Part shown: positions 16,405-33,770 of the stretch, piece after piece
Numbering within the stretch: the first letter of the stretch is position 1
Layout of the letters: the number at the start of each line of letters is the position of its first letter
DNA from: Rubellimicrobium arenae
GTDB lineage: Bacteria > Pseudomonadota > Alphaproteobacteria > Rhodobacterales > Rhodobacteraceae
DNA length: 64,000 bases
NCBI RefSeq assembly: GCF_017916275.1
Contig: NZ_JAFMST010000007.1
Span: 62,001-126,000, forward strand
Direction of reading: 5' to 3'
The notes under the pieces: model-generated
Told to the model about the DNA's origin: nothing
Database searches by the model: none
Seen by the model: the letters and a program-made list of their open reading frames with translations, nothing else
Translations under genes and position numbers: made by a program

Positions 16405-16520
16405 CCGGGCCTCCTGTCACGCCCCGATCGGGCCTTGGGCAAGCTAGGCTGCCCGCGCGCATCGGACAACCGGCGCGCAGGCCTACCCCTCGTCCATGCC
16501 GTTTCCTGAACGGAGAGGGG

Positions 16521-19500: not shown

Positions 19501-19793
19501 TGGACATGGGCTACGACGTCGTCGAGGCCGCGACGGCGGACGCGGCTCTCGACCTCGTGGACGAGGGGCTGAGGCCGGATCTCGTGGTGACCGACCACCT
19601 TATGCCCGGAATGACGGGCACGGCTCTTGCCCACATGCTGGGGCAAAGGTTCCCCGACCTGAGCATCCTGGTCATCTCGGGCTATGCCGAGGACGGGGGC
19701 ATCGCCGCGGACCTGCACCGGCTGGCCAAGCCGTTCCGGCAGCCCGAGCTCGCGACGGCGCTCGCAGCCCTTGGCAAGGGTCCGCTGCGCTGA
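16521..19793 (+). CDS. Multi-PAS hybrid sensor histidine kinase with C-terminal receiver
   Basis: 1090 residues without membrane segments. The N-terminus carries HDWPGTPLGPIEAWPPSL, the signature that opens many alphaproteobacterial PAS hybrid kinases. About five PAS-type units follow (roughly 55-175, 185-315, 320-440, 455-580, 600-715). The dimerisation helix has His about 738 in GGVAHDFNNLL, then an HATPase with NLAVNARDAMPGGG and GRGTGLGLSMVHGL, and a receiver (about 975-1085) with Asp about 1025 in VVTDHLMPG. No output domain, so the final target is a separate histidine phosphotransferase or regulator. ATG 16521 has GGAG five bases upstream. Confidence 0.9.
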   Translation: MLGMIPSTPSVGGALDIPSPPARPVWLPAQGGCADLIAGHDWPGTPLGPIEAWPPSLTAMVGMALRSATPMAVLWGDQGIAIYNDGFASLIGRRHPGAMGRSCLDVVTDLMGFDTEVLRSCLAGGTRSVTAQEMTLDRHGTPEPAWFDLECVPVPGVDGRPTGVLATVRDVSDRVRAEHRRTEEIERLRALADNLPNTTAFQVETTRDLSERRFIYLSTSSGPLFGVSPDAARTDPLFWTNLFHPEDAARVLREEARAARYLSTLDVEFRIRRPDGQMVLGRLLTRPREASDGRLLWDGMLIDVTAVRGAEAELRRTSSLLAAIGAATPDLVYAKDRDSRLLYANAALAALLGRSPAELIGSSEQDWSANPREGEAIRANDIRIMETGETVEFEEVFTGVDGQTRHFRTVKSPLRDGRGDIVGLVGLSGDITETRQAQEALRRLNSELEERVAEALAERKVWADVFETTDAFVAVVGLDMRILAINRACVQEIGKLGGRKPRVGDRMPDLYSSQPDIARAAEALWQRALTGEAFAVTQDFVAADGQATSYELRHGPLRDRGGHLIGAYQYGTDVTDRLRDQRRAAEAEAAHREADALYRAYFQNSDEGLFIIAVLGDDLFSIEEVNPAHKQTLKLDLEGLRGRPLEEQLPAGVAEAVAVNYRRAIETGQVQRYREDVDLGGSLRHYETVLVPVRDLEGRITRLVGSSRDMTAQIKAEEALRQSQKLESMGQLTGGVAHDFNNLLTPILASLDMLHRRGVGDVRMGRLVEGALQSAERARTLVQRLLAFARRQPLQSEPIDLGALVTGMAELIASTVGPRISVETAIEPGLPPVQADANQLEMAILNLAVNARDAMPGGGSLRVAARAGLAAEGPSILPSAGRFVRLGVSDSGVGMDGATLARAIEPFFSTKGVGRGTGLGLSMVHGLASQLGGALAIQSHPGRGTTVELWLPQSVQAVAEPQVPEDGLTAPSAGTALLVDDEDLVRASTAHMLVDMGYDVVEAATADAALDLVDEGLRPDLVVTDHLMPGMTGTALAHMLGQRFPDLSILVISGYAEDGGIAADLHRLAKPFRQPELATALAALGKGPLR

Positions 19794-19817: not shown

Positions 19818-19842
19818 GGAACCGGGTCGGCGGGGGGACGTT
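19818..19842 (+). promoter_or_regulatory. EcfG-type promoter upstream of the DUF892 gene
   Basis: GGAAC-N16-CGTT, a perfect match to the general-stress consensus, 67 bases before the start at 19910. DUF892 proteins are often stress-induced, which agrees. Confidence 0.7.
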
Positions 19843-19909
19843 CCACAGGCCTAACCGGACCGGGCGGGCCCCCTGCCCCCCGGGCCGCGCAACCGGAGGA
19901 ACGATCGCA

Positions 19910-20413
19910 ATGGGTCTCTTCACGAAGGACATCGCGACGCTGGACGACCTCTTCGTGCACCAGCTTCAGGACATCTACTACGCCGAGAACCAGATCACGA
20001 AGGCGCTGCCGACGATGATCGCCAAGGCCACCGACCCGCAGCTCCGCTCGGGCTTCGAGCAGCATCTGGCCGAGACGCAGAACCAGATCAAGCGCCTGGA
20101 GCAGGTCTTCCAGATGCATGGCCATACGCCCAAGGCCGTGGACTGCCCGGCCATCGACGGCATCATCAAGGAAGCCAACGAGACCGCGGGCGAGATCGCC
20201 GATAAGGAGGTGCTCGACGCCGCCCTGATCGCCGCCGCGCAGGCCGTGGAGCACTACGAGATCACCAAGTACGGCTCGCTCATCGCCTGGGCCAAGCAGC
20301 TGGGCCGCGAGGACTGCGCGGCGGTGCTTCAGCAGAACCTCGACGAGGAAGGCGCGACCGACAAGAAGCTGACCGCCATCGCGGAAGCCAAGGTCAACGC
20401 CCGCGCCGCCTGA
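19910..20413 (+). CDS. DUF892 (YciE/YciF) ferritin-like protein
   Basis: 167 residues, all-helical. MGLFTKDIATLDDLFVHQLQDIYYAENQITKALP is the standard opening of the YciE/YciF family, and repeated Glu/His helices (EQHLAETQNQIKRLEQVFQ; QAVEHYEITKYGSLIAWAKQLG; QQNLDEEGATDKKL) would form a four-helix ferritin-like bundle with a di-metal site. Members are cytoplasmic and induced by osmotic or general stress; the chemical role is not settled. Ribosome binding site GGAGGAA is well placed. The upstream GGAAC-N16-CGTT element predicts EcfG control, and a strong terminator follows. Confidence 0.93.
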   Translation: MGLFTKDIATLDDLFVHQLQDIYYAENQITKALPTMIAKATDPQLRSGFEQHLAETQNQIKRLEQVFQMHGHTPKAVDCPAIDGIIKEANETAGEIADKEVLDAALIAAAQAVEHYEITKYGSLIAWAKQLGREDCAAVLQQNLDEEGATDKKLTAIAEAKVNARAA

Positions 20414-20436
20414 CGGGCAAGCCGCACGATCGGGTG

Positions 20437-20470
20437 AAGGGCCGGCGGGGGCAACCCTGCCGGCCCTTTC
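20437..20470 (+). terminator. Rho-independent terminator after the DUF892 gene
   Basis: AAGGGCCGGC paired with GCCGGCCCTT, with further G:C pairs around a CAAC loop, followed by TTTC. Separates the DUF892 gene from queF. Confidence 0.75.
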
Positions 20471-20521
20471 GCATGGCGGCCCGCGCTGCTAGGGGCCAGC
20501 GGTCCCGCGCGAGGTTCCCCA

Positions 20522-20986
20522 ATGTCCGACAGCATCTACTCCGGCCTGACCCAGCTGGGCCAAGCCACGCCCCTGCCCCAGCGCCCCGAGGACGCCGTCC
20601 TCGAACGCGTGCCCAACCCGCAGGCGGGCACCGCCTATGTCGTCCGGTTCACCGCGCCCGAGTTCACGTCGCTCTGCCCGATGACGGGGCAGCCGGACTT
20701 CGCGCATCTGGTGATCGACTACGTGCCCGGCGACTGGCTGGTGGAAAGCAAGTCGCTCAAGCTGTTCCTGGGCAGCTTCCGCAACCACGGCGCCTTCCAC
20801 GAGGACTGCACCGTGACCATCGCCAAGCGGATCGCGGAGCTGCTCGATCCGCAATGGCTGCGGATCGGCGGCTACTGGTACCCGCGCGGCGGCATCCCGA
20901 TCGACGTGTTCTACCAGACCGGGCCGGTGCCGCAGGGCGTCTGGCTGCCCGACCAGGGCGTGCCGCCCTATCGCGGGCGGGGCTAG
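20522..20986 (+). CDS. queF: NADPH-dependent 7-cyano-7-deazaguanine reductase
   Basis: 154 residues, short (unimodular, type I) QueF. It reduces preQ0 to preQ1 in queuosine tRNA modification. Catalytic Cys lies in [14 protein letters not shown]; the QueF signature is [22 protein letters not shown]; the second half has [13 protein letters not shown]. Acts in the cytosol as a multimer. It has its own short gap after a terminator and no other queuosine gene nearby. No preQ1-riboswitch fold is evident in the 50 bases before the start. Confidence 0.95.
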
Positions 20987-21022
20987 GCCCGCCCGCCCTT
21001 GGCGCTCGTTCATTGGCCCCGG

Positions 21023-21799
21023 TTACTGGCCCGAACCCGGTTCGGCCATCTTCCGGTGCTGCTCGGCCAGCATCCCGGCGGGGGTGATGTTGGCGATCGC
21101 GGACTGGAGCTTGTTCTTCCAGCCGGCGACCACGTCGCCCTCGCCGTTCATCATCGCCTTCCAGCCCACCTCGGCCACCATGGCGGGATCGTCCTTCTTG
21201 GCCGCGCCCACCTTGGTGTCCTCCATGTCGGCACGCTCGAAGAACTCGGTCTCGGTGGCGCCGGGCATCAGGTCGGTGACGGTGACGCCCGAGTCCTTGA
21301 TCTCCTCGCGCAGCGCGAAGGCAAAGGAGTTTATGAAGGCCTTGGTGCCGTTGTAGACCGCCTGGAACGTGCCCGGCATGAACCCGGCGATCGAGCCGGT
21401 AATCAGGATGCGCCCCTGCCTGCGGGCCACCATGTCGCGGCCGACCTTCTGGATGAGGTAGATCGTGCCGGTGATGTTGGTGTCGACGACATGACGGGCC
21501 TCGGCGAAGTCCTGTTCGAGGAAGCCGTGCCCGAGCCCGTGGCCCGCATTGGCCAGGAGCGCATCCACCGGGCGGCCCCGCGCGGCGGCGTATAGACGGT
21601 CCACGCCGTCGAGCGTGGACAGGTCCACCTCCAGGGCCTCGACCTCGACCCCCAGGGCGCGCAGATCCTGGGCGGCCTCCTGGATCTTGGGCTGGTCGGC
21701 GGCGATGAGCAGATCATGGCCGTTCTGGGCGGCCAGCTTGGCGAGCTCATAGCCGATGCCGGAGGAGGCGCCGGTCACGATGGCGAAGGGACGGGTCAT
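21023..21799 (-). CDS. SDR family NAD(P)-dependent oxidoreductase
   Basis: About 258 residues. TGASSGIG cofactor motif at the N-terminus, NAGHG, catalytic Ser in LITGSIAG and YNGTK as the YxxxK motif. The C-terminal half has DLMPGATETEFFERADMED, typical of DltE/YqjQ-like SDRs of unknown substrate. ATG 21799 is preferred (GGAG upstream); ATG 21814 is possible. An excellent EcfG-type element lies on the same strand 74 bases upstream, divergent from a second one, so this gene is probably a general-stress gene. Confidence 0.9.
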   Translation of the reverse strand: MTRPFAIVTGASSGIGYELAKLAAQNGHDLLIAADQPKIQEAAQDLRALGVEVEALEVDLSTLDGVDRLYAAARGRPVDALLANAGHGLGHGFLEQDFAEARHVVDTNITGTIYLIQKVGRDMVARRQGRILITGSIAGFMPGTFQAVYNGTKAFINSFAFALREEIKDSGVTVTDLMPGATETEFFERADMEDTKVGAAKKDDPAMVAEVGWKAMMNGEGDVVAGWKNKLQSAIANITPAGMLAEQHRKMAEPGSGQ

Positions 21800-21872
21800 T
21801 GGGGGATACTCCATGAGGTCATGGCCCGGACCGGCCGCCAGTCGGGCGTCCGCGGCCGGGCGTCACGGCTCC

Positions 21873-21897
21873 AACGCCGGGCCGCGGACGGCGTTCC
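21873..21897 (-). promoter_or_regulatory. EcfG-type promoter for the SDR gene
   Basis: On the minus strand: GGAAC-N16-CGTT, perfect consensus, ending 74 bases before the SDR start. Divergent from the element at 21913. Confidence 0.7.
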
Positions 21898-22277: not shown

Positions 22278-22607
22278 GCGCTGGACGAAGGCCCGCTGGC
22301 TGGGCGGCCGCAGGGCGGCTCAGCCGGGCGACGGAGGCCTCGGGCACCTTGAACGGTCACGACCAGCCGTCCGCCATCCGACCGAGCGCACGACGCCGGG
22401 GCGGCCGGCGTGGGCGCCCCGGCGCGGGCCTCGGACGCGGGCTCCCGGCCCAGGCTGCCAGCATCGCGATCCGGCGACCGGATGGCGCGTCCGGCGCAAC
22501 CCGGCCCAGCCTGGCAAAATGATTGTGGCTGGCGGGGAACTTACCCCGTTCGACCCTGTTGACGTGGGCAATCGCCGCAGGACGGCGGCATAGGGTCAGG
22601 GGCGCGG
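22278..22607. other. Intergenic region upstream of the inositol/glycan operon
   Basis: 330 bases with no convincing gene. GC-rich with several short inverted repeats and, near its right end, the EcfG-type element at 22536. Nothing else recognised. Confidence 0.6.
22536..22560 (+). promoter_or_regulatory. EcfG-type promoter of the inositol/glycan operon
   Basis: GGAAC-N17-GTT, 47 bases before the first start codon at 22608; same spacing variant as the element at 21913. Confidence 0.55.
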
Positions 22608-23723
22608 ATGAGACTGGTGGTGTTCGGGCTGGCCGTGAGCTCGTCATGGGGCAACGGTCACGCGACCCTATGGCGTGGGCTCATCGGAGCGTTGACACGC
22701 CTTGGCCACGAGGTCGTCTTCTTCGAACGCGACGTTCCCTACTACGCCGAAACGCGTGACCTGACGCGGCTTCCGGACGGTGCGGAGCTGGTGCTCTACC
22801 CCGACTGGTGGTCGGTGCTGCCGCGCGCCCGCGCCGAGGTGGCGCGCGCGGACGCGGTCATGGTCACGTCCTTCTGCCCCGACGGCCCGCTGGCGTCCGA
22901 GCTGGCCTGGACCGAGGCCAAGGGACTGACCGTCTTCTACGACATGGACACGCCCGTGACGTTGCGCCGCCTGGAGGGGGGCGAACGCGTCGACTTCCTG
23001 CCCCCGGAGGGGCTGGGCGACTTCGACCTCGTGCTCAGCTACACGGGTGGCATGGCGCTCGACCTGCTGCGGACGCGGCTGAGCGCGCGACGGGTCGCGC
23101 CGCTCTACGGCCATGTGGATCCGGCGGCGCATCGGCCCGGGTCCCCGGACCCTGCCTTCCGCGGCGACCTGTCCTACCTGGGCACCTACGCCGCCGATCG
23201 GCAGGCCGCGCTCGAGACGCTGTTCATCGACCCCGCCCGCCAGCGTCCCGGCCTGCGGTTCGTGCTGGCAGGGGCGAATTACCCCCCGGACTTTCCCTGG
23301 ACGGACAACATCTACTTCGTGAAGCACCTGCCGCCCCCCGACCATCCGGCGTTCTTCGCGTCCTCCCGCCTGACGCTCAATGTGACCCGGGAAGCCATGG
23401 CCTCGATGGGCTGGTGCCCGTCCGGGCGGCTTTTCGAGGCGGCCGCCTGCGGCATCCCGGTCCTGAGCGACGCCTGGGAGGGCCTGGGCGACTTCTTCAC
23501 GCCCGGCGAGGAGATCCTGACCGCCCGGACCACCGCCGACGCCATCGCCGCGCTGGAGCTGCCGGATGCCGAACTGGCCCGCATCGCCAGGGCCGCGCGC
23601 GACCGCACGCTGTCCGAGCACAGCTCGGACGTCCGCGCGGCGGAACTTGTCGACCTGCTGGGCGGCGATGGCCGTCGCCGCGCCACATCTCAGCCAGAAG
23701 GGACAGTTGCATGTGGGGAATAA
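22608..23723 (+). CDS. CgeB-like glycosyltransferase
   Basis: 371 residues, GT-B fold. N-terminal VVFGLAVSSSWGNGHATLWRG and a C-terminal half with FRGDLSYLGTYAADRQAAL, RLTLNVTREAMASMGWCPSGRLFEAAACGIPVLSD and LGDFFTPGEEIL, the pattern of the CgeB/DUF3880-type glycosyltransferases. Acceptor and donor unknown. First gene of an eight-gene rightward operon; its last codons overlap the next gene by 13 bases. The upstream EcfG-type element suggests the whole operon is stress-controlled. Confidence 0.85.
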   Translation: MRLVVFGLAVSSSWGNGHATLWRGLIGALTRLGHEVVFFERDVPYYAETRDLTRLPDGAELVLYPDWWSVLPRARAEVARADAVMVTSFCPDGPLASELAWTEAKGLTVFYDMDTPVTLRRLEGGERVDFLPPEGLGDFDLVLSYTGGMALDLLRTRLSARRVAPLYGHVDPAAHRPGSPDPAFRGDLSYLGTYAADRQAALETLFIDPARQRPGLRFVLAGANYPPDFPWTDNIYFVKHLPPPDHPAFFASSRLTLNVTREAMASMGWCPSGRLFEAAACGIPVLSDAWEGLGDFFTPGEEILTARTTADAIAALELPDAELARIARAARDRTLSEHSSDVRAAELVDLLGGDGRRRATSQPEGTVACGE

Positions 23724-24454
23724 TTCCCGCCGCCGGGAACGGGACGCGGATCCAGCCGCTCGCCTTCTCCAAGGAGCTGCTGCCCGTCGGAGGGCGGCTC
23801 TCGGGCGACGGCCGCAGCCGCCCAAAGGCCGTCAGCGAGTTCCTGGTGGACCGCATGGCGTTGGCCGGGGCGACCAAGGTCTGCTTCGTGATCTCGCCCC
23901 ACAAGGCCGACATCCTCAAGTATTACGGGGGACACTGCGACATCGTGGAGATCGCCTACGTCGTCCAGCCCGAGGCATCGGGCCTGTGCGACGCCATCTT
24001 CCGCGCCCATCCGGTGATCCCGCACAACGAGCCGGTCCTCGTGGGCCTGCCGGACACGATCTGGTTCCCCGAGGATGCGCTGCGGGCGCTGCCGGATGAC
24101 CGGCTGTCCTTTCTGCTGTTCCCGGTGGAGCAGCCGCAGTTCTTCGACGCGGTGGTGACCGACGCGGACGGACGCGTCCTGGCCATCGACGTGAAGTCGC
24201 CCGAGGTCCGGACCAACTGGATCTGGGGCGCCTTCAAGATGCCGGGCCACATCTTCCACGAGCTGCGCGAGTTCTGGCTGTCGCGCCGGGACCCCGACGA
24301 ATACATCGGCACGCTCGTCAACGCCTGGATTGAGCAAGGTGGCCAGGCGCTCGGGGTCCGGGCGGGAACGCTTTACGCCGACGTGGGCACGCTGGAGGGC
24401 TACCGGATGGCGATGGAGCTCCTCGGCCCGGAGCCCGCGCGCGCCGCGCGCTAG
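23711..24454 (+). CDS. Sugar nucleotidyltransferase family protein
   Basis: 247 residues. GIIPAAGNGTRIQPLAFSKELLPVGG is the nucleotide-binding GXGTR...P signature of RfbA/GalU-type enzymes, with GLPDTIWFPEDAL as the metal-binding Asp loop and YADVGTLEGYRMAME near the end. It should join an NTP to a sugar-1-phosphate to make the activated donor for the operon's glycosyltransferases; the sugar cannot be told. It lacks the C-terminal hexapeptide domain. Overlaps the preceding gene and is followed 3 bases later by the PIG-L gene. Confidence 0.87.
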   Translation: MWGIIPAAGNGTRIQPLAFSKELLPVGGRLSGDGRSRPKAVSEFLVDRMALAGATKVCFVISPHKADILKYYGGHCDIVEIAYVVQPEASGLCDAIFRAHPVIPHNEPVLVGLPDTIWFPEDALRALPDDRLSFLLFPVEQPQFFDAVVTDADGRVLAIDVKSPEVRTNWIWGAFKMPGHIFHELREFWLSRRDPDEYIGTLVNAWIEQGGQALGVRAGTLYADVGTLEGYRMAMELLGPEPARAAR

Positions 24455-24457
24455 GCC

Positions 24458-25252
24458 ATGACGGACCTGCCCGGACGCCTCGCGCGGAGGGAGCGCATCC
24501 CCGAACGGGTGGTGCTGGTCGTGGCGCATCCGGATGACGAGACCCTGGCCCTGGCAAGCCGGCTGGACTGCCTGGAGGACCTGTCGATCATCCACCTGAC
24601 CGACGGCGCCCCCCGGGACCTGAGGGATGCCCGGCAGGCCGGGGTCGACACGGTCGAAAACTATGCCGAGCTGCGCCGCCAGGAACTACGGACCGCGATG
24701 GCCGCGCTGGGGTCGACGGCCGAGCTCCGCTGCTACTGGCATCCCGACCAGGAGGCGATCCTCCACGGCGCGGCCATCGTCCAGAACCTCGTCCGCGACC
24801 TTTGGGGGGCCGGCGCGGTCATCACCCACCCCTACGAGCATGGCCATCCCGACCATGACGCGGCGGCGCTCTGCGTCGCGCTGGCCTGCCGCCGCTTCGA
24901 GGCGGAGCGGCGGCCCGTCCCCGACCGGTTCGAGTTCCCGAGCTACCACCTGCGCCAGGGGCAGGCCCGGTTCGGCGAGTTCTGGCCCGACGCCTCGGCC
25001 CCCGAGACGGCGATGCCGCTGTCCGATGACGACCGGGCGCGGCGGCGCGCCGGCCTCGCCTGCTTCGGGAGCCAGCAGGCCTTCCTCAGCCATATGCCCG
25101 AGATGGGCGAGCGGCTGCGCCCCGCTCCCGCCTATGACTTCCGCGCCCCTGCCCCGTCCGGTCAGGCCTGGTACGACCAGTTCGGCTGGACGATGAACCT
25201 CGCGGCGTGGCGGCGCCACGCGGACGCGCTGCTCGATCAGGCCCCCGCATGA
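24458..25252 (+). CDS. PIG-L (LmbE/MshB-like) deacetylase
   Basis: 264 residues. The zinc-binding AHPDDE at residues 23-28 and the second metal motif in EHGHPDHDAAAL match the GlcNAc-inositol deacetylase family (PIG-L of GPI anchors, MshB of mycothiol, LmbE). These remove the acetyl from an N-acetyl sugar linked to inositol or another aglycone. With an inositol-3-phosphate synthase and a GT4 in the same operon, a GlcNAc-inositol-type substrate is a reasonable inference. Its stop overlaps the next start (ATGA). Confidence 0.9.
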   Translation: MTDLPGRLARRERIPERVVLVVAHPDDETLALASRLDCLEDLSIIHLTDGAPRDLRDARQAGVDTVENYAELRRQELRTAMAALGSTAELRCYWHPDQEAILHGAAIVQNLVRDLWGAGAVITHPYEHGHPDHDAAALCVALACRRFEAERRPVPDRFEFPSYHLRQGQARFGEFWPDASAPETAMPLSDDDRARRRAGLACFGSQQAFLSHMPEMGERLRPAPAYDFRAPAPSGQAWYDQFGWTMNLAAWRRHADALLDQAPA

Positions 25253-26364
25253 GGCGCCTGACGATCCTCAGCGTGTCCTACCCGCTCGCGCCCGTGACGG
25301 CCGATCCGGTCGGGGGCGCGGAGCAGGTGCTCGCCCGGCTGGACCGGGCGCTGGTCGCGGCGGGCCACCGGTCGCTCGTGATCGCGCCCGAGGGATCGCA
25401 GGTCGCAGGCGAGCTTCGCTCCGTCCCGGCGGTGGAGGGGCCGATCTCGGACGCGGATGCGGAGCGGGTCCGGGCCGCCGTCCGGGCCCGGATCGCCGAG
25501 GTCGTCGCGCAGGAGGCGCCCGATGTCGTCCATCTCCACGGCATCGACTTTCCCGCCTACCTTCCCGAGCCCGGCCCGCCGGTCCTCGTGACGCTTCACC
25601 TGCCGCTCGACTGGTATCCGCCCGAGGCGCTGTCGCCCGCCCGGCCCCGAACCCATCTCCATCCGGTTTCGGCCGCGCAGGCGGCGACCGCTCCGCCGGG
25701 CGCGCGGATCGAAGCCCCCATCGAGAACGGCGTGGAGATCCCCGACCTGCGCGTCCGCAGGCGCGGCTTTGCCTTCACGCTGGGGCGCATCTGCCCCGAG
25801 AAGGGCTTCGACGACGCCCTGATGGCCGCAGAGATGGCCCGCAGGCCGCTGGTGATCGCCGGGACCGTGTTCCCTTATCCCTTCCATCAGCAGCATTTCC
25901 GCGACGCCATCGCCCCGCGCCTGTCCTGGCGGCGGCGCTGGATTGGCCCCGTCGCAGGCGCGCGCAAGCAGCACCTCCTGGCCGCGGCCGCCTGCGTCCT
26001 GATCCCGGCCAAGGCACGGGAAACCTCGTCCCTCGTCGCCATGGAGGCGCTCGCCGCCGGGACCCCGGTCATCGCCTATCCGAGCGGGGCGCTTCCTGGC
26101 ATCGTGGAGCATGGCCGGACCGGGTTCCTCGTGGAGGACGTGGCCGGTTTGGCCGACGCGATCCGCAGGGCCGGCGAGATCGACCCGGACACCTGCCGCG
26201 CCACCGCCCGGGCCCGTTTTTCCGCCGACCGCATGATCGCAGGCTACCTGGCCCGGTACCGCGATCTGTCGCGCCCCTCCGGCGCGCACGGCGCGTTCCC
26301 GCCGCATCGGAACGAACCATGGAACCTCACGCCCTCGCGAGCGTTTGTACCCGAACGAAAGTAG
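25249..26364 (+). CDS. GT4 family glycosyltransferase
   Basis: 371 residues, GT-B fold. N-terminal VGGAEQVLARLDRALVAAGH, then LGRICPEKGFDDALMAAEMA donor-domain start and ETSSLVAMEALAAGTPVIAYPSGALPGIVEHGRTGFLVED, which contains the E-x7-E motif. This is the family of MshA, PimA/B and other inositol- or lipid-linked transferases, but generic GT4 enzymes look the same, so the acceptor is not proven. ATGA overlap with the PIG-L gene; its 3' end overlaps the phosphatase ORF. Confidence 0.88.
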   Translation: MRRLTILSVSYPLAPVTADPVGGAEQVLARLDRALVAAGHRSLVIAPEGSQVAGELRSVPAVEGPISDADAERVRAAVRARIAEVVAQEAPDVVHLHGIDFPAYLPEPGPPVLVTLHLPLDWYPPEALSPARPRTHLHPVSAAQAATAPPGARIEAPIENGVEIPDLRVRRRGFAFTLGRICPEKGFDDALMAAEMARRPLVIAGTVFPYPFHQQHFRDAIAPRLSWRRRWIGPVAGARKQHLLAAAACVLIPAKARETSSLVAMEALAAGTPVIAYPSGALPGIVEHGRTGFLVEDVAGLADAIRRAGEIDPDTCRATARARFSADRMIAGYLARYRDLSRPSGAHGAFPPHRNEPWNLTPSRAFVPERK

Positions 26365-26986
26365 AAGCCACCGGGGGTTCCCCATCAGCGTCCAGCTTTA
26401 TCTGATCCGCCATGCAACCCATGCGGACTTCGGGCGGCGCCTGACGGGCCGGGCCGCTGGCGTGCCGCTCACCCCCGAGGGCGAGCGTCAGGCCGCCGCA
26501 TTGGCGCGCGGGCTGGCCGGAGAGGCGTTGACCCAGATCCACACCAGCCCGCGGGACCGCGCCCGCGCCACCGCCGAGGCCCTGGCCCGCGCCAGCGGCG
26601 CACCGGTGACGGTGGTGGAGGCCTTGGACGAGGTCGACTTCGGCGACTGGACCGGATCGGAGTTCGCGGACCTCCATGGCCAGCCGCTCTGGGACGACTG
26701 GAACACCCGCCGCGCCACCGCGCGCGCGCCGGGGGGCGAGAGCATGGGCGAGGCCGCGGACCGCGCGGTCCGGCATATGGAGTCGCTTGCCCCGCACGGT
26801 GGGGAGCGGATCGCCCTGGTGAGCCACTGCGACGTGATCCGCGCTCTCGTGGCCCGCGTGCTGGGCCTGTCCCTGGACCATCTCCTGCGCTTCGAGATCG
26901 GCCCCGCTTCGGTAAGCCGGCTCGAGGCCGGGACTTGGGGCGCGCGGGTACTAAGTCTGAATGAAACCATCGGAATGGACGCATGA
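26345..26986 (+). CDS. Histidine phosphatase (phosphoglycerate-mutase-like)
   Basis: About 213 residues. LYLIRHATHA carries the catalytic RH(G/A) His; TSPRDRARATAEAL, DEVDFGDWTG with the acid Glu, and VSHCDVIRAL with the second His complete the active site. It hydrolyses a phosphate ester of unknown identity. In this operon the obvious candidate is an inositol-phosphate intermediate, as in the unassigned MshA2 step of mycothiol synthesis (inference). The start is unclear: the only in-frame conventional start is TTG 26345 without a ribosome binding site, inside the end of the GT4 gene; a non-standard start nearer ISVQLYLIRH is possible. Confidence 0.82.
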   Translation: MYPNESRSHRGFPISVQLYLIRHATHADFGRRLTGRAAGVPLTPEGERQAAALARGLAGEALTQIHTSPRDRARATAEALARASGAPVTVVEALDEVDFGDWTGSEFADLHGQPLWDDWNTRRATARAPGGESMGEAADRAVRHMESLAPHGGERIALVSHCDVIRALVARVLGLSLDHLLRFEIGPASVSRLEAGTWGARVLSLNETIGMDA

Positions 26987-27762
26987 AGGACGTGAATGAC
27001 CCCGGGGACGACGACCTCGCCCGTCGCATCGAGGCCTTGGGGCCCTGGTTCCACAATCTGCGGCTTGGCGGGATCGAGACGGCGCCCGGGCACTTCCTGG
27101 GAGACTTCCCCCGCACCAAGTTCGAGCGTTTCGCCCATGCGATCCCCGAGGACCTGTCCGGCAAGTCCGTGCTCGACATCGGCTGCAACGCCGGGTTCTA
27201 CGCCCTGGAGATGAAGCGGCGCGGCGCCTCCCGCGTCCTGGGCATCGATCACGATGAGCACTACCTCCGGCAGGCCCGGCTTGCCGCCGAGGTGGAGGGC
27301 GCGGAGATCGAGTTCCGGCAGCTCGAGGTCTATGACGTGGGCGCCCTGGGCGAGACCTTCGACCTCGTGATCTTCATGGGCGTGCTTTATCATCTGCGGC
27401 ACCCCCTCCTCGCGCTCGACCTGATCCGGGAACATGTCTGCGGCGACATGCTGGTTTTCCAGTCGCTCCAGCGGGGCCCCGAGCAGGTGCTGGAGGTTCC
27501 CGACGAGGTTCCGTTCTCCGAGGAAACCATCTTCGAGAAGCCGGGCTACCCGGCGATGTACTTCATCGAGAAGTCCTACTCGGAGGACTGGACCAACTGG
27601 TGGGTTCCGAACCGGGCCGGCACCGAGGCGATGCTCCGGGCCGCGGGGTTCTCGATCGAAGCGCGCGCCTCCGAGGATGTCTACATCTGCCGCCGGGCCC
27701 AGGTGCCCTACGCCCAATGGGGGGCTGGCGCGGCCTATCCGGCACGGGGGGCCGCGCGATGA
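26983..27762 (+). CDS. CmoB-like SAM-dependent methyltransferase (TIGR04290-type)
   Basis: 259 residues. WFHNLRLGGIETAPGH and GDFPRTKFERF at the N-terminus recall CmoB, and SVLDIGCNAGFYALEMKRRG is SAM motif I, followed by LVIFMGVLYHLRHPLLALD. I recall a named family (TIGR04290) for such proteins in carbohydrate clusters of this composition; I could not check it. It is not cmoB itself: shorter and in the wrong context. Likely methylates (or carboxymethylates) the cluster product. ATGA overlaps on both sides couple it to its neighbours. Confidence 0.85.
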   Translation: MKDVNDPGDDDLARRIEALGPWFHNLRLGGIETAPGHFLGDFPRTKFERFAHAIPEDLSGKSVLDIGCNAGFYALEMKRRGASRVLGIDHDEHYLRQARLAAEVEGAEIEFRQLEVYDVGALGETFDLVIFMGVLYHLRHPLLALDLIREHVCGDMLVFQSLQRGPEQVLEVPDEVPFSEETIFEKPGYPAMYFIEKSYSEDWTNWWVPNRAGTEAMLRAAGFSIEARASEDVYICRRAQVPYAQWGAGAAYPARGAAR

Positions 27763-28685
27763 TCGATTCCGTGATGTTCTGGAACGAACCCAACAACAAG
27801 TCGCATTGGGATCCCGAGATCGATCCCGACTGGTCGCAGTTCGCCACCATGATCAACCTGGCCGGCCAGGCGGTCGCCTCGGTCAACCCGGACATGACGC
27901 GCGTTCTGGGGGGCATCTCCCCGATCGACCCGAACTTCATCCTCCGGCTCAAGGACCGGGGCGTGCTCGACAACGTGGACGTGCTGGCGGTGCATGGCTT
28001 TCCGCTGGACTGGAACCTGTGGCAGATCAACGAATGGCCCGCCAAGGTCGCCGAGATCGAGGCCGTGGCCCCCGACCATCCGGTCTGGGTCAGCGAGGTC
28101 GGCGTCGGCTCCTTTGGCGCCGAGGAGGTGCAGACCTTCGGCGTGCAGCGGACGGCCGAGCTGCTCCTCGATCGCGTGCCACGGGTCTACTGGTACTCGC
28201 TCTTCGACCTGCCGCGGCAGTGGGAGGCCACGACGCGCCACAAGGAAGCCGAGGGGTCGAGCTACTACCGCCACTTCTACATGGGCCTGATCCGCGAGGA
28301 TGGGACACCCAAGCCGGGCCTTGAAGCCTTTGCTCCCCATGCCGGGCGCATGGGGCTCATGCAGTGGTTCCACTACGAGGACCCGCGCCTCCCCCTCGCG
28401 GTGGAGTGGCTCAAGCGGCTGGGCGTGCGGCACCTGCGGACGGGGCTGTCCTGGGCCGACAGCTTCCGTCCCAACGCGCTCGACTGGTTCGACCGCCAGA
28501 TGGACGCCTTGCAGGACTTCGACGTGATGGTGACCTTCTGCTTCACGCCCGAGCACCTGGGGGTGGGCGAGCACCACACCAGTCCCCCGCGCGAGCCGCA
28601 GCAGTTCGCCGACTTCTGCGCCGCCATGGTGGAGCGCTACGCGCCGGCCCGACCGGCCCGGGCCCAGATTGCAGGGAGGGGATGA
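27759..28685 (+). CDS. Clan-A glycoside hydrolase-like protein, apparently circularly permuted
   Basis: 308 residues. MFWNEPNN at residues 6-13 is the acid/base NEP motif of (beta/alpha)8 retaining glycosidases (beta-4), and VWVSEVGVG with Glu about 113 is the nucleophile strand (beta-7). The normally N-terminal part comes last: WLKRLGVRHLRTGLSWADSF, WFDRQMDAL, VTFCFTPE, TSPPREPQQFADFCAAMVERYAP. In ordinary barrels RYAP-type helices are followed directly by the WNEPN strand, so here the chain seems opened exactly at that point. No signal peptide, so it works in the cytosol, perhaps trimming or transglycosylating an intermediate. Confidence 0.8.
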   Translation: MIDSVMFWNEPNNKSHWDPEIDPDWSQFATMINLAGQAVASVNPDMTRVLGGISPIDPNFILRLKDRGVLDNVDVLAVHGFPLDWNLWQINEWPAKVAEIEAVAPDHPVWVSEVGVGSFGAEEVQTFGVQRTAELLLDRVPRVYWYSLFDLPRQWEATTRHKEAEGSSYYRHFYMGLIREDGTPKPGLEAFAPHAGRMGLMQWFHYEDPRLPLAVEWLKRLGVRHLRTGLSWADSFRPNALDWFDRQMDALQDFDVMVTFCFTPEHLGVGEHHTSPPREPQQFADFCAAMVERYAPARPARAQIAGRG

Positions 28686-29800
28686 TGCCCGATGGAAGCC
28701 TGACCCGCGAGGGGATCAACATCGCCATCGTGGGCGTGGGCAACTGCGCGAGCTCGCTCGTGCAGGGCATGGCCATGTACCGCGACCACGACCGGAACGA
28801 ACATACCGGCCTCATGCACTGGGACCTGGGCGGCTACCGTCCCGGCGACATCCGCGTGGTGGCGGCCTGGGACATCGACCGCCGCAAGGTGGGCCAGGAC
28901 GTGGCCCGGGCGATCTTCGAGAAGCCGAACTGCACCCTGACCTTCTGCGCCGATGTCCCCGAGACCGGGGCCCGGGTGCGGATGGGCCGGATCCTCGATG
29001 GCTTCGCGCCCCATATGGCCGACCAGCCCGAGCATCGCACCTTCCTCAGGTCGGACGAGGCCGAGCCCGACAAGGAGGACGTGATCCGCGTGCTCCGCGA
29101 GAGCGGCACCCACGTGCTCATGAACTACCTCCCCGTGGGCTCCCAGAAGGCGACGGAGTTCTACGCCGAATGCGCGCTCGAGGCCGGCGTGGCGTTCGTC
29201 AACAACATCCCGGTCTTCATCGCGTCGGACGAGGCCTGGGCGCAGAGATTCCGCGACGCCGGCGTCCCGATCATCGGCGACGACATCAAGGCGCAGGTGG
29301 GCGCGACCATCGTGCACCGGGTCCTGACGGATCTTTTCGCCAAGCGGGGCGTGCGGCTCGACCGGACCTACCAGCTCAACACCGGGGGCAACACCGACTT
29401 CCTCAACATGTGGGCGCGCGACCGCGTGGCGTCCAAGAAGATCTCCAAGACCGAGGCCGTCCAGGCCGTCGCCGGCGAGCGGCTCGATTGGGAGAACATC
29501 CATGTCGGCCCGTCGGATTACGTGCCTTGGCAGAACGACAACAAGGTCGCCTTCATCCGGCTGGAAGGAACGCAGTTCGGCGGCGTTCCCATGCACATGG
29601 AGGTGCGCCTGTCGGTGGAGGACAGCCCCAATTCCGCCGGGGTGGCCATCGACCTGATCCGCTGCGCCAAGGTCGCCCGCGACCGGGGTCTGTCCGGTCC
29701 CATCGAGGCGCCCGCCGCCTTCTTCTGCAAGCATCCGCCCCGCCAGATGACGGACGACGCCGCCCACCAGGAGGTCGAAGCCTTCATCCGCGGCGCCTGA
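28682..29800 (+). CDS. ino1: Inositol-3-phosphate synthase, actinobacterial type
   Basis: 372 residues. Converts glucose-6-phosphate to myo-inositol-3-phosphate using NAD. INIAIVGVGNCASSLVQGM is the NAD-binding motif, and NYLPVGSQKATEFYAECAL, PVFIASDEAWAQRFRDAGVPIIGDDIKAQVGAT and LDRTYQLNTGGNTDFLNM are the family's active-site blocks (SYLPVGS, GDDIKSQ, LNVGGNxDF in Mycobacterium). The short form closely follows the actinobacterial/archaeal class, not the ~530-residue eukaryotic one. Last gene of the operon, with GGGAGGGG before the start and ATGA overlap. It makes inositol the likely core of the cluster product. Confidence 0.93.
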   Translation: MMPDGSLTREGINIAIVGVGNCASSLVQGMAMYRDHDRNEHTGLMHWDLGGYRPGDIRVVAAWDIDRRKVGQDVARAIFEKPNCTLTFCADVPETGARVRMGRILDGFAPHMADQPEHRTFLRSDEAEPDKEDVIRVLRESGTHVLMNYLPVGSQKATEFYAECALEAGVAFVNNIPVFIASDEAWAQRFRDAGVPIIGDDIKAQVGATIVHRVLTDLFAKRGVRLDRTYQLNTGGNTDFLNMWARDRVASKKISKTEAVQAVAGERLDWENIHVGPSDYVPWQNDNKVAFIRLEGTQFGGVPMHMEVRLSVEDSPNSAGVAIDLIRCAKVARDRGLSGPIEAPAAFFCKHPPRQMTDDAAHQEVEAFIRGA

Positions 29801-29938: not shown

Positions 29939-32152
29939 TCAGGCGATCAGGTCGTGGCCCTGGTGGTGCGTGACCAGATCGTAGCGGGCGTCATCCTGAT
30001 GATGGTGGTCGAGCGCCGACGAGGCATCGTGCTGGCCGCTGTCGTGCTCCATGGCCGAGGACACGGTCAGGACGCCCGCGTCCGAAGCCGTCGTGGCGGT
30101 CTGGGCGGTCTTCAGGATCGTGGTCTTGGGCGAGGCCGGGAAGCCTGCGGAGACCGACATCTCGAAGGCCGACAGGTCGCCGACGAAATTGCCCTTCTTC
30201 CAGGGATTCCCGAACACGAGGTCCTGCACGTTGTACCCGGTGGCGCCGCCGATCGTGCCGCTCATCGTGGTCTGGCCGGCCAGGGCGCCGTCCACCCAGA
30301 TCTGCAGCTTGCCGCTGTCGAGATGGATCACGACGTCATGGTCCTTTTCGACCACGGAGTTGAGCCTGGCCCCCTTGGTCATCACGGTCACGGGAGAAAG
30401 GCCGCCGTCGCGGAAGACCTGGAAGCTCATCTCGCCCGTGGAGGTGACGGCCGCGGTGAAGCTGCCATGGAGACGGAAGACCTCGCCCGAGGTGCCGACC
30501 TTGTCGGCGTCCAGCGTCATGCCGATCGTCATCTTGTCGCTGCCGATGACATCCAGAACGTGGTTCCGGTCAATGGTGGCCGTCACGCCCACGGCGCCGA
30601 GCTGGATGCCGTCCGACGTCAGCTTGGGCGCGACGCCCAGATCGACGGGCGCCCCGTCGTGGTAGGCCACGAAGTGACCGTCCTGCAGGCTCAGCACCTC
30701 GGAGGACTGGATCGAGCACTTGTAGTCCTCGTAGACGGTCGCGCCCGTCGGCAGCTTGATCGTGAGCTTGACCGGGTAATCGCCCGGGCCGGAGTAGCTG
30801 TGGCGCACCGTGACGCCCTGCGCCTTGGTGCCGTCGCCGAACGTCCAGTAGAACGCGGTGCCGACGGGCAGCGAGCCGCCGTCGAACACGGAATGGCTGG
30901 CGTCGAACACGCGGGTCGCGCCGTCCACCTTGGCGACCTGGAACTGCACCTGCAGACCACCGCCCGCGCCCTGGGTCACGTCCGACCCGGCATTGGCCTG
31001 GTCGATGACCCCGCCAGCAACGGCCAGATAGCGATGCTCGCCGTCACGAAGAGCGAGGGAGGAGCTGACGAAGACGTCGTTGTAGTAGTTGGGGGCGAAG
31101 GAGTCCTGGTCCTGCACCAGGATGTTCTTGGTCACGGTCCAGCCAGCCTCGGCCGAGGGGATGTCCGCGGCCAGGTTGGCGGAGATGACCACGTTCTTGG
31201 CGTTCTCGGCCACCATGATCTTCGGGATCTCGACGGACGGGTCGGGACCGTCGGCGGCCGCGCCGTCGGCGTGCAGGACCGAATTGTTGCGGATCACGAG
31301 GCCGTTGGTCTCGCCAACCGAGATGCCGCGCGCCGACGCGTTGGTGATCGTGTTATTCTCGATCAGGATGTTCTGGTAGTACATGGACGCGCCGGCGCGC
31401 CCGGTGTCCACGACCTCGTTCCGCATGAAGATCGACTGGGTCCGCGCGCCGTTGCCGATGTCGAGCAGGTTGTCGCGGATGACGACGTTCTCGGTCGGGG
31501 CGTCGGTGCCGCTCGTCCAGAACTGGATCATGTCGCGGTGGTCGGTCGAAGCCGGCGGGGCCCGGAAGTCGTGGATGTGGTTTCCTTCGATGACGACATT
31601 CTGGACTTCACTGAAATCCATGCCGTCCGACCGCATTCCGTAGACTTCGTTATTGCGAACCGTTACCCCGGAGTTTTCGCTGAACACCATTCCGCGGTGG
31701 AAATCGTAGGACTCGCAATTCTCGACCGTCACGCCGGTCGAGGTGCGAACCGAAAGGCCGATTCCGTAGCCATAACCATCGGCCAGCGACGAAACGCCGC
31801 GGGCAAAGTCACCATCGAAGGTGGAATTGCGAATCGTGAGGTTGGTGCAGTTCTGGAAGTTGAAGGGACGTTCCGAGGTTAGGTCGCCGGACTGGAACTC
31901 GTAATCGAACTTGATCCCGTCGAACGTCATGTTCGCCGCGCCACGAACCTCCACGGCCGAAAAAGACGCAGGATTCCTGGCATCCGCCGACATGATCGTG
32001 ACGTTGGACGGAAATGCGAAATTGAACCCGGACTTCACGGACAGGTTCATGTTCCCGTAATCGCCGCCAGCAAGCAGGATGGTTTCGCCACCCTTGCAGC
32101 TCGCCAGTGCGCTGTAGAGTTGCTTCAGGTCCGAAACGTTGATCGTCGCCAT
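29939..32152 (-). CDS. Right-handed beta-helix / PKD / LamG-like protein, probable type I secretion substrate
   Basis: 737 residues, no signal peptide. Residues ~20-390: parallel beta-helix with Asn-ladder repeats (NLTIRNSTF, GVTVENCES, NVVIEGNHIHDF, DHRDMIQFW 204-212). Residues ~400-480: PKD domain (FYWTFGDGT, HSYSGPGDYPVKLTI). Residues ~505-665: LamG-like sandwich (LQIWVDGALAGQT). The C-terminal ~70 residues are disordered and rich in His and Asp. Next to HlyD and ABC exporter genes, so type I export is inferred, although RTX repeats are absent. Residues 50-390 resemble the Sec-exported protein at 38730. It may be a polysaccharide lyase or epimerase. The 5' third is less GC-rich than its neighbours. 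Confidence 0.85.
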   Translation of the reverse strand: MATINVSDLKQLYSALASCKGGETILLAGGDYGNMNLSVKSGFNFAFPSNVTIMSADARNPASFSAVEVRGAANMTFDGIKFDYEFQSGDLTSERPFNFQNCTNLTIRNSTFDGDFARGVSSLADGYGYGIGLSVRTSTGVTVENCESYDFHRGMVFSENSGVTVRNNEVYGMRSDGMDFSEVQNVVIEGNHIHDFRAPPASTDHRDMIQFWTSGTDAPTENVVIRDNLLDIGNGARTQSIFMRNEVVDTGRAGASMYYQNILIENNTITNASARGISVGETNGLVIRNNSVLHADGAAADGPDPSVEIPKIMVAENAKNVVISANLAADIPSAEAGWTVTKNILVQDQDSFAPNYYNDVFVSSSLALRDGEHRYLAVAGGVIDQANAGSDVTQGAGGGLQVQFQVAKVDGATRVFDASHSVFDGGSLPVGTAFYWTFGDGTKAQGVTVRHSYSGPGDYPVKLTIKLPTGATVYEDYKCSIQSSEVLSLQDGHFVAYHDGAPVDLGVAPKLTSDGIQLGAVGVTATIDRNHVLDVIGSDKMTIGMTLDADKVGTSGEVFRLHGSFTAAVTSTGEMSFQVFRDGGLSPVTVMTKGARLNSVVEKDHDVVIHLDSGKLQIWVDGALAGQTTMSGTIGGATGYNVQDLVFGNPWKKGNFVGDLSAFEMSVSAGFPASPKTTILKTAQTATTASDAGVLTVSSAMEHDSGQHDASSALDHHHQDDARYDLVTHHQGHDLIA

Positions 32153-32257
32153 CTTATCCCTCGTATTCTTAGTTTGTGTTAGGTGCCCCTTAGGTCTGCC
32201 TGCCTTCTGAACTATGATCGTGGCGAAACAACGCCGTGGCAGGAGCAGGACAAAGAC

Positions 32258-32281
32258 TTATGTGGGACACATAAAGATCAC
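32258..32281. promoter_or_regulatory. 17-bp palindrome with adjoining CATAAAGAT element upstream of the beta-helix gene
   Basis: TTATGTG-GGA-CACATAA (32258-32274) is a perfect 7-bp inverted repeat in an AT-richer 295-base gap (32153-32447), about 106 bases upstream of the beta-helix start. CATAAAGATCAC (32270-32281) overlaps its right arm and recurs with one change at 42534. Candidate operator; the rest of the gap shows no gene. Confidence 0.45.
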
Positions 32282-32447
32282 CTATTGCGAAGAGTTTTCG
32301 GCGAACCGGATCGGCCCGCCTCGATCGGCAGGTAAAAGGAAACGGCTCCAATCGATCGGCCCGTTTCCCTGGCTGGCTGGTCCAGTCGCGGCGGATGCGC
32401 GGGCCCGGCCCGCGCATCCATCGCTCAGGTCTGGCTGCCTGGTGCTG

Positions 32448-33770
32448 TCAGGATTCCCGGAACGCGCGGTGGAGATGGCTCTCGACGGGATGCAGGAGAT
32501 ACTCCAGCACCGAGCGTTCGCCGGTCTGGAGGAAAGCCTCGACCGGCATGCCCGGGATGAGGCTCACCCCGTCTCCGAGCCGGGCCAGCTGATCCGTGCC
32601 GACGGACAGGGTCACGCGATAGAAGCTCCGGCCCGTCTGCGGATCGTTGACCGCCGCCGCCGGGACCATCTCGACCTGCGCCTTCAGATGCGGCGTCGAG
32701 GCCGGATCGAGCGGCGCGATCACGATCTCGGCCGGCTGGCCGGGATGAACCTGGTCGATCGAACGGGGGTCGACCTGGAGCTCGAACTCGAACCCTTCGT
32801 CCAGGGGCATCACCTGAAGCAGGGTATCGCCCGGACCGACGACGCCGCCGACCGTCGCCACCTGCACCTCGTGGACGATGCCGTTCGAGGGGCTGCGGAT
32901 GACCGTGCGTTCCAGCTCGGCCGACCGCGTGATGATCTCGAGCACGAGCTCGTCCACCTTGGCCGAGGCGTCCCGCAGATCGGTGGCCACGCCCTCGCGG
33001 AACTCGCGCTCGTCCTGGAGCGTGCTGAGCCGGGCGTCCTCCATGTCGATGCGGACGCTCGCCATCTCGGCCTCAAGGCTCGCGATCTCGCCCCGGAGGT
33101 CGGCGGCGGAACGGGTCATGTCGTTCAGCTCGCGCGTGGGGACGAGTCCGCGCCCATCGAGCTGGCGCATGTTCGCAAGATCCTCGTCCATGAGCGAGGC
33201 CTGGTCCCGCTTGGCCGCGATCTGGGCCCCCAGTCCGGTCAGGCGTGCCTCGCCCTGGCGCAGCGCTTCGGCCAGCTGGTCGCGGGCGCCCCGGAGGACG
33301 TCGGCACGGGCGGCAAAGATGCGGCTTTGCGCCTGCTCGGACCGCGAGGTGTCGGGGCGGGTGAAGGGCAGGTCCGGATAGTCGAACGCCGGTTCGGACA
33401 GCCCCGCCTGCTCCGCCTCCAGACGCGCCTTCAGCGCAAGAGCGTCGGCCAGCCGCACGCGGGCGATGTTCAGGTTCGTCTGCACCAGCGTCGAGTCGAG
33501 CCGGAGCAGTTCTTGGCCTGCAACGACGCGATCGCCGTTCTTGGCCTCGATGGCCCGGACGATGCCGCCGTCCAGCGATTGCACCAGCTGCGGCCGGCCC
33601 GCCACCGTGATCTGGCCCGAGCTGACGACCGCCCCTTCGATCTTGGTGAAGGTGGCCCAGCCACCGAACCCGGCGAACAGGAGAGCCAGTCCGGCGACGC
33701 CCAGCCGCACGGGGCGGCGCAGGTCCGTCGCGGGGATGAGGTCGATACCGGCAACGGCGGCAGCAGTCAT
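32448..33770 (-). CDS. HlyD family type I secretion membrane-fusion protein
   Basis: 440 residues. Cytoplasmic N-terminus, one membrane helix about 21-44 (LGVAGLALLFAGFGGWATF), then a first lipoyl half (GRPQLVQSLDGGIVRAIEAKNGDRVVAGQELLRLD), a long coiled coil (about 100-290), the second lipoyl half (SPSNGIVHEVQVATVGGVV) and a beta-barrel domain ending IPGMPVEAFLQTGERSVLEYLLHP, all typical of PrtE/HlyD adapters. It bridges the ABC transporter at 33767 and an outer-membrane TolC, which is not in the window. Overlaps the ABC gene by 4 bases. Confidence 0.92.
   Translation of the reverse strand: MTAAAVAGIDLIPATDLRRPVRLGVAGLALLFAGFGGWATFTKIEGAVVSSGQITVAGRPQLVQSLDGGIVRAIEAKNGDRVVAGQELLRLDSTLVQTNLNIARVRLADALALKARLEAEQAGLSEPAFDYPDLPFTRPDTSRSEQAQSRIFAARADVLRGARDQLAEALRQGEARLTGLGAQIAAKRDQASLMDEDLANMRQLDGRGLVPTRELNDMTRSAADLRGEIASLEAEMASVRIDMEDARLSTLQDEREFREGVATDLRDASAKVDELVLEIITRSAELERTVIRSPSNGIVHEVQVATVGGVVGPGDTLLQVMPLDEGFEFELQVDPRSIDQVHPGQPAEIVIAPLDPASTPHLKAQVEMVPAAAVNDPQTGRSFYRVTLSVGTDQLARLGDGVSLIPGMPVEAFLQTGERSVLEYLLHPVESHLHRAFRES

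Follow-up and report, generated by a model that had tools for sequence, protein, structure and literature searches.

The operon of eight genes described here is, in a reading that we hold at about an even level of confidence, part of an undescribed general-stress pathway under EcfG control, predicted to make a small soluble methylated inositol glycoside. It was found in the window, the whole stretch of 64,000 nucleotides of Rubellimicrobium arenae DNA that was analysed, and it apparently belongs to a larger undescribed system.

The operon and its promoters

The eight rightward genes A to H are tightly coupled and form a real operon; the open reading frames were confirmed. Domain scans agreed with the names that the sequence-only reading had given to all eight proteins. 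The features are as follows.

22536..22560, + strand: EcfG-type promoter element GGAAC-N16-TGTT, 72 bp before A
22608..23723, + strand: A, CgeB-type glycosyltransferase (PF13524)
23711..24454, + strand: B, sugar-1-phosphate nucleotidyltransferase (PF00483)
24458..25252, + strand: C, PIG-L-type deacetylase (PF02585; AHPDDE and HGHPDHD motifs)
25249..26364, + strand: D, GT4 glycosyltransferase (nearest solved chains tll1591 and BH4 glucosyltransferases)
26321..26345, + strand: second EcfG-type promoter element GGAAC-N16-CGTT, before E
26384..26986, + strand: E, histidine phosphatase (PF00300; start uncertain)
26983..27762, + strand: F, CmoB-like TIGR04290 methyltransferase (profile match)
27759..28685, + strand: G, circularly permuted clan GH-A-type glycosidase barrel (by sequence and AlphaFold2 model)
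28682..29800, + strand: H, inositol-3-phosphate synthase, Ino1 (PF01658; solved chain 1gr0)

A and B overlap by 13 bases, B and C are separated by 3 bases, and there are overlaps of 4 bases at C/D, E/F, F/G and G/H. Candidate start codons of E are ATC at 26384 and TTG at 26345; the latter may not be the true start. No known structured RNA was matched by Rfam at the gathering score between 19000 and 31000.

The element at 22536 was already claimed from the sequence and is indeed present. The second element was missed at that time; it overlaps the 3' end of the D gene and has the full CGTT. We compared the loci bearing C in five congeners (L179, L180, L181, L182 and L183; L182 is apparently R. 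roseum, as is L043). All eight genes are present in L179, L180, L182 and L183, with B and C in two pieces in L183, while L181 stops after D and a GNAT gene. A motif like that at 22536 sits 72-75 bp before A in L179, L181 and L043/L182, and no such motif was seen before A in L180 and L183. Every congener locus that holds E (L043/L182, L179, L180, L183) also has the motif in front of this gene.

EcfG promoters have a known consensus, and the motif searched across loci was GGAAC-N16/17-[CT][AG]TT. This motif was found upstream of 63 of 185 lead genes (28 with CGTT) versus 3 of 746 internal genes, and five scrambled -35 words gave only 0-2 of the 185 lead genes. At least one motif occurred in 45 of the 89 loci having lead genes, the window among them; in the other 44 it was absent in the form searched. 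The window holds four matches versus 1.5 expected (8 of 100 shuffles reach four), or three versus 0.53 with CGTT (2 of 100 shuffles), a count that is weak evidence when taken alone. These four motifs precede DUF892, SDR, A and E. NepR is present in the genome of R. arenae. The consensus agrees with the motifs listed in PMC6599016, and by its GGAAC-N16/17-CGTT-like promoter the operon would belong to the EcfG regulon. Stress control had been proposed from the first element; the enrichment at lead genes supports promoters of stress type, and the operon is probably switched on by stress through EcfG. Some of the EcfG-dependent genes of S. melonis given in PMC6599016 code for glycosyltransferases (#3505-3509) and one (#2499) for a Zn-dependent alcohol dehydrogenase; they could not be linked to the cluster.

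An inositol-linked core with two kinds of cassette

F scores 373 bits with TIGR04290 (curated cut-off 300). Of the 299 genomes of the phylum that were scanned, 10 have a match above this cut-off. We gathered 92 loci by F: 9 from TIGR04290 genomes, 80 from genome contigs (the best 80 of 570 matches) and 3 from plasmids. By this design every locus contains F; E was found in 75, G in 86 and H in 67, counts that are depressed by short loci and not independent, as the sampled genomes and loci are related. Thus the expected set of inositol-linked genes, with Ino1, phosphatase, glycosyltransferases and methyltransferase, does recur across the 92 loci. Within the gene set, E-F-G-H make up the recurring core, and the PIG-L gene, which occurs in 8 of the 92, is optional.

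Two types of cassette share this core, type I in 72 and type II in 21 of the 92 loci (best 80 of 570 matches included); eight loci have both and seven have neither. Type I consists of SDR2, SDR1, GT4b, Cg1, Cg2, Cg3 and UXS (a record label; it reached no NCBIfam cut-off), often with ZnDH and Gfo (41 of 92 each). Type II is defined by the presence of A and B, and its 21 loci also carry G (18 loci), D (16), GNAT and H (14 each) and C (8). A is a paralogue of type I Cg3 (48% identity).

The carriers belong to Sphingomonadales (32), Hyphomicrobiales (19), Acetobacterales (10), Rhodobacterales (6) and Rhodospirillales (6); sphingomonads, methylobacteria, rhizobia, Roseomonas and Paracoccus are among the groups that have the cluster. 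Four further loci come from Acidobacteriota, Verrucomicrobiota and Gemmatimonadota, mostly from metagenome assemblies, and may be misbinned; the remaining 15 were unplaced or their order was not listed. In the literature searched, the cluster and its parts were not described, S. meliloti locus tags being guessed from position, and term searches in PMC6180224, PMC3892343 and PMC7083833 gave no matches. A search with such tags led to a paper that names SMb20231, an ABC transporter protein.

The Ino1 assignment of H is strong. H scores 122.6 bits with PF01658 (cut-off 27), and its residues 11-371 align along the full length with M. tuberculosis Ino1 (1gr0, E 2e-117, the best solved chain); the match to the five-membered-cyclitol-phosphate synthase 6k96 is weaker (E 1e-56). 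It is the sole PF01658 gene found in its genome, where PF07994 gave no match. Strong Ino1 matches (E below 1e-100) were observed in 9 of 10 genomes with above-cut-off TIGR04290 versus 18 of 289 others (Fisher p = 9.5e-10, which is optimistic because several of the ten genomes share a genus). In all nine genomes Ino1 sits inside the cluster. On the other hand, Ino1 was not found nearby in 17 of the 74 loci that span 19.5 kb or more, and the annotated clusters of R. etli and Paracoccus AK26 have neither Ino1 nor phosphatase; that some complete clusters do without Ino1 is evidence against an inositol core. The best profile for type I Gfo is inositol 2-dehydrogenase (90.8 of 355 bits; next 86.4) and for type I ZnDH scyllo-inosose 3-dehydrogenase (102 of 450 bits; next 95.6), scores that would weakly support such a core.

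It is unlikely, in our estimate, that the locus modifies a surface polysaccharide or glycolipid in which inositol is one residue. This would agree with the many glycosyltransferases and with the pyruvyltransferase-family genes beside 17 and FrhB-like genes beside 18 of the 92 clusters (best 80 of 570 matches included), both of which are usual company in polysaccharide loci. However, no exporter, flippase or polymerase is listed within the cluster in four annotated relatives, and the window proteins look soluble: none of the eight exceeds 1.48 in a 19-residue hydropathy scan. Against our own reading, a value of 1.6 is passed by five of the 24 representative proteins, none of which is encoded by the window operon. 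The EcfG-dependent glycosyltransferases of S. melonis include one whose gene name refers to exopolysaccharide biosynthesis (PMC6599016); it counts in favour of a surface polysaccharide but is not tied to the cluster.

The window itself has a hybrid arrangement. Genes A-D are type II genes, while the E-F-G-H core groups with type I: in the G and H trees (quick trees with SH-aLRT support; G read among the branches listed) the window and R. roseum fall within type I groups (99 and 100) that contain no type II locus. As judged from these trees, the operon is a composite of type II genes and a type I core that has its own EcfG-type promoter. Elsewhere in the genome, contig C9 carries a type I cassette (SDR2, SDR1, GT4b, Cg1-3, ZnDH and a UXS homologue, 44-69% identity) with an EcfG-like motif before SDR2. 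Only a single above-cut-off TIGR04290 gene and a single Ino1 gene turned up in this genome. As the window core also belongs with type I in the trees, it may serve both modules.

The glycosyltransferase, the deacetylase and the comparison with mycothiol

Mycothiol synthesis employs Ino1, the GT4 enzyme MshA, a phosphatase, the PIG-L deacetylase MshB, MshC and MshD. A mycothiol-like logic had been suggested for the operon, and it holds in so far as Ino1, phosphatase, GT4 and PIG-L share one operon; it does not hold for D, which is not MshA-like, or for PIG-L, which is optional. The solved chains nearest to D are tll1591 (E 2e-26) and the BH4 glucosyltransferases (4e-24), at only 27-30% identity. 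A fold search with an AlphaFold2 model of D (pLDDT 88, 11 sequences) placed tll1591 first. MshA was rejected as an identity for D, given 40.8 of 462.5 bits with TIGR03449 (residues 229-310 only), E 8e-7 with the MshA chain and a first appearance at rank 19 by fold.

The enzyme tll1591 is a glucosylsucrose synthase (TeGSS) with Tyr18 as its catalytic residue (PMC9909042). D keeps the R..PEK donor stretch of these enzymes (R180, E184 and K185, in 11 of 11 sequences) but not Tyr18, which is Val21 in D by sequence alignment, assuming that the chain numbering is offset by 3. Since D is nearest by sequence and fold to tll1591 and the BH4 glucosyltransferases, enzymes that glucosylate small soluble acceptors, it probably acts on such an acceptor too. 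The product could then be a sugar oligosaccharide solute of glucosylsucrose type, with Ino1 and E supplying free inositol as a separate solute, and the clusters without Ino1 would suit this. We consider it rather improbable given the association of Ino1 with TIGR04290 genomes and the fact that Tyr18 is not kept in the alignment. PIG-L and GNAT chemistry, which calls for an amino sugar or similar, also speaks against it, and we continue to prefer an inositol glycoside.

The metal motifs of C are intact, and AHPDDE and HPDHD are kept in 8 of 8 homologues checked. Its best NCBIfam profile is TIGR04000 (BshB2; 38 of 195 bits), and no solved chain matched at E 0.01. We rejected PIG-L as a hallmark of the system because it is present in 8 of 92 gathered loci (with the best 80 of 570 matches), in 1 of 149 genomes of the family, each from another genus, and in 6 of 8 genomes within the genus. 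The sequence-only reading had named a lack of joint conservation of Ino1 and PIG-L as one result that would refute it. The two occur together in 5 of 8 PIG-L loci and in the genus (one of the three PIG-L loci without Ino1 spans only 6.5 kb), while Ino1 mainly accompanies the phosphatase-methyltransferase-glycosidase core; the pair is therefore conserved, though as a minority variant.

It had also been stated that the MshC and MshD steps are missing, and neither is above cut-off in this genome. For MshC (TIGR03447) there was one match of 281 of 485 bits, below cut-off; 14 of 14 control genomes also match, 1 of them above the cut-off, and none of the 8 relatives bearing PIG-L exceeds it. MshD (TIGR03448) gave five matches, the best with 27 of 163 bits. 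The claim needs correction with respect to GNAT (PF13480), which occurs in 14 of the 92 loci (best 80 of 570 matches included) and lies directly after D in the congeners L181 (33%) and L183 (37%). An unlinked homologue on contig C11 of R. arenae (41%; 33-42% to 14 type II GNATs) is a candidate orthologue only, and GGAAC-N16-CGTT lies 167 bp upstream of it.

H is of the actinobacterial kind but scores 444.9 of 638 bits with the mycothiol-type equivalog TIGR03450. The cluster further differs from the mycothiol genes by its methyltransferase, permuted glycosidase and EcfG-type promoters. If the product were nevertheless glucosaminyl-inositol, D would join UDP-GlcNAc and inositol-3-phosphate, E would remove the phosphate and C the acetyl group, and decoration would follow. 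The sharing of one operon by Ino1, phosphatase, GT4 and PIG-L, kept in congeners, and the GNAT of relatives as a possible MshD counterpart are in line with this. We think it hardly probable, because D is not MshA-like, neither MshC nor MshD is above cut-off and PIG-L is optional.

Aminocyclitol antibiotic pathways, with BtrM/NeoM, BtrD/NeoD and NeoA, resemble the cluster in combining a GT4, a PIG-L deacetylase and a cyclitol, and type I adds Gfo and Zn dehydrogenases. They differ in that an aminotransferase is absent among the tallied cluster genes and in four annotated relatives.

The permuted glycosidase and the proposed pathway

The first strand of G is the NEP strand, and the final third of the protein looks like the opening part of a GH-A barrel. 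Native G scores 20.9 bits with Glyco_hydro_cc, just under the cut-off of 21, and rotated G passes it with 24.4. Against PslG, which we take to belong to clan GH-A, G 210-295 matches PslG 34-129 and G 6-186 matches PslG 135-320 (whole-sequence E 0.073, neither piece significant by itself); rotated G aligns in a single stretch, 15-263, with E 6.9e-7. In L036 an unpermuted relative of G is fused to SDR1 and has the same two pieces in the opposite order. SDR genes of this fusion kind sit in the R. etli and Paracoccus AK26 clusters.

Among the 86 loci with G, the gene is permuted and complete up to its stop codon in 82; of the others, L036 is unpermuted, L079 and L109 reach the contig end and L107 is split. 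The start at strand 4 is real, since a stop immediately precedes it in L044, L048 and L087. The AlphaFold2 model of native G (pLDDT 90.2, pTM 0.88) has eight barrel strands. The catalytic glutamates E10 and E113 are present in 44 of 44 sequences and, by sequence and model position, lie after strand 4 (the NEP glutamate) and on strand 7, as in PslG and clan GH-A. In contrast to that clan, the strands run 4-8 and then 1-3. Foldseek gave no convincing full-length match to the model (best TM by query 0.46, 12 matches at E 0.001), which fits a permutation and proves nothing. By sequence and model, then, G is a circularly permuted clan GH-A barrel. In the literature searched we found no clan GH-A glycosidase that is circularly permuted in nature; G would be such a case, and the unpermuted SDR-fused relatives in rhizobia and Paracoccus allow comparison.

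In the pathway we propose, H would turn glucose-6-phosphate into inositol-3-phosphate, as its strong homology indicates, and E would take off the phosphate. B, by its family, would activate a sugar-1-phosphate, and D and A would add sugars to inositol or an inositol glycoside. C may unmask an amino group that GNAT would then re-acylate, F would O-methylate, and G, with both catalytic glutamates kept, may trim or transglycosylate an intermediate. We infer every reaction after Ino1, the solubility of the product and the role of G. More tentatively, and with less confidence than in the pathway as such, we suggest that an inositol-making core (Ino1, phosphatase, methyltransferase, and G via transglycosylation) feeds interchangeable glycosyltransferase cassettes, which would yield different methylated cyclitol oligosaccharides as protectants.

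In summary, if the proposal is true, it would add a new general-stress metabolite system to the alphaproteobacteria. The cluster is widespread and about one locus in two has EcfG-type promoters, which makes it a candidate, amenable to deletion, for making an unknown product of the general stress response in alphaproteobacteria.

Start codon of the phosphatase gene

We compared the start region of the histidine phosphatase gene E in the window (26321-26410) with the corresponding regions of five loci from Rubellimicrobium congeners (L043, L179, L180, L182 and L183; L043 and L182 are apparently both R. roseum). We searched for in-frame ATG, GTG or TTG codons from the EcfG-type promoter motif to the LYL[IL]RHA start of E, and found none past the motif in these congeners. 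The window additionally has a TTG that overlaps the motif. An ATC codon was present between the motif and LYL[IL]RHA at an identical position in the window (26384) and in all congeners compared. The rare AUC codon may be the start of E.

Fused and split genes

A relative of the circularly permuted glycosidase-like protein G was found in unpermuted order, as a fusion with a type I cassette SDR, at three loci:
L036, about 15780-17800
L168, 11650-13689
L169, 9677-11668

Matches were split into two pieces in different frames for G of Devosia aurantiaca (L107 10741-11678) and for B (nucleotidyltransferase) and C (PIG-L deacetylase) of one congener (L183 9020-10539).

Genes flanking the operon

29939-35896, minus strand: right-handed beta-helix/PKD protein, HlyD-type protein and ABC transporter genes
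19818-21897: DUF892 and SDR genes adjoining the operon, one EcfG-type motif each

The former are perhaps a type I secretion set. A multi-PAS hybrid histidine kinase (1090 residues, 16521-19793) adjoins the DUF892 and SDR genes. Since the DUF892 and SDR genes carry EcfG-type motifs and also adjoin the operon in the fetched congeners, we infer that they form a small stress island.
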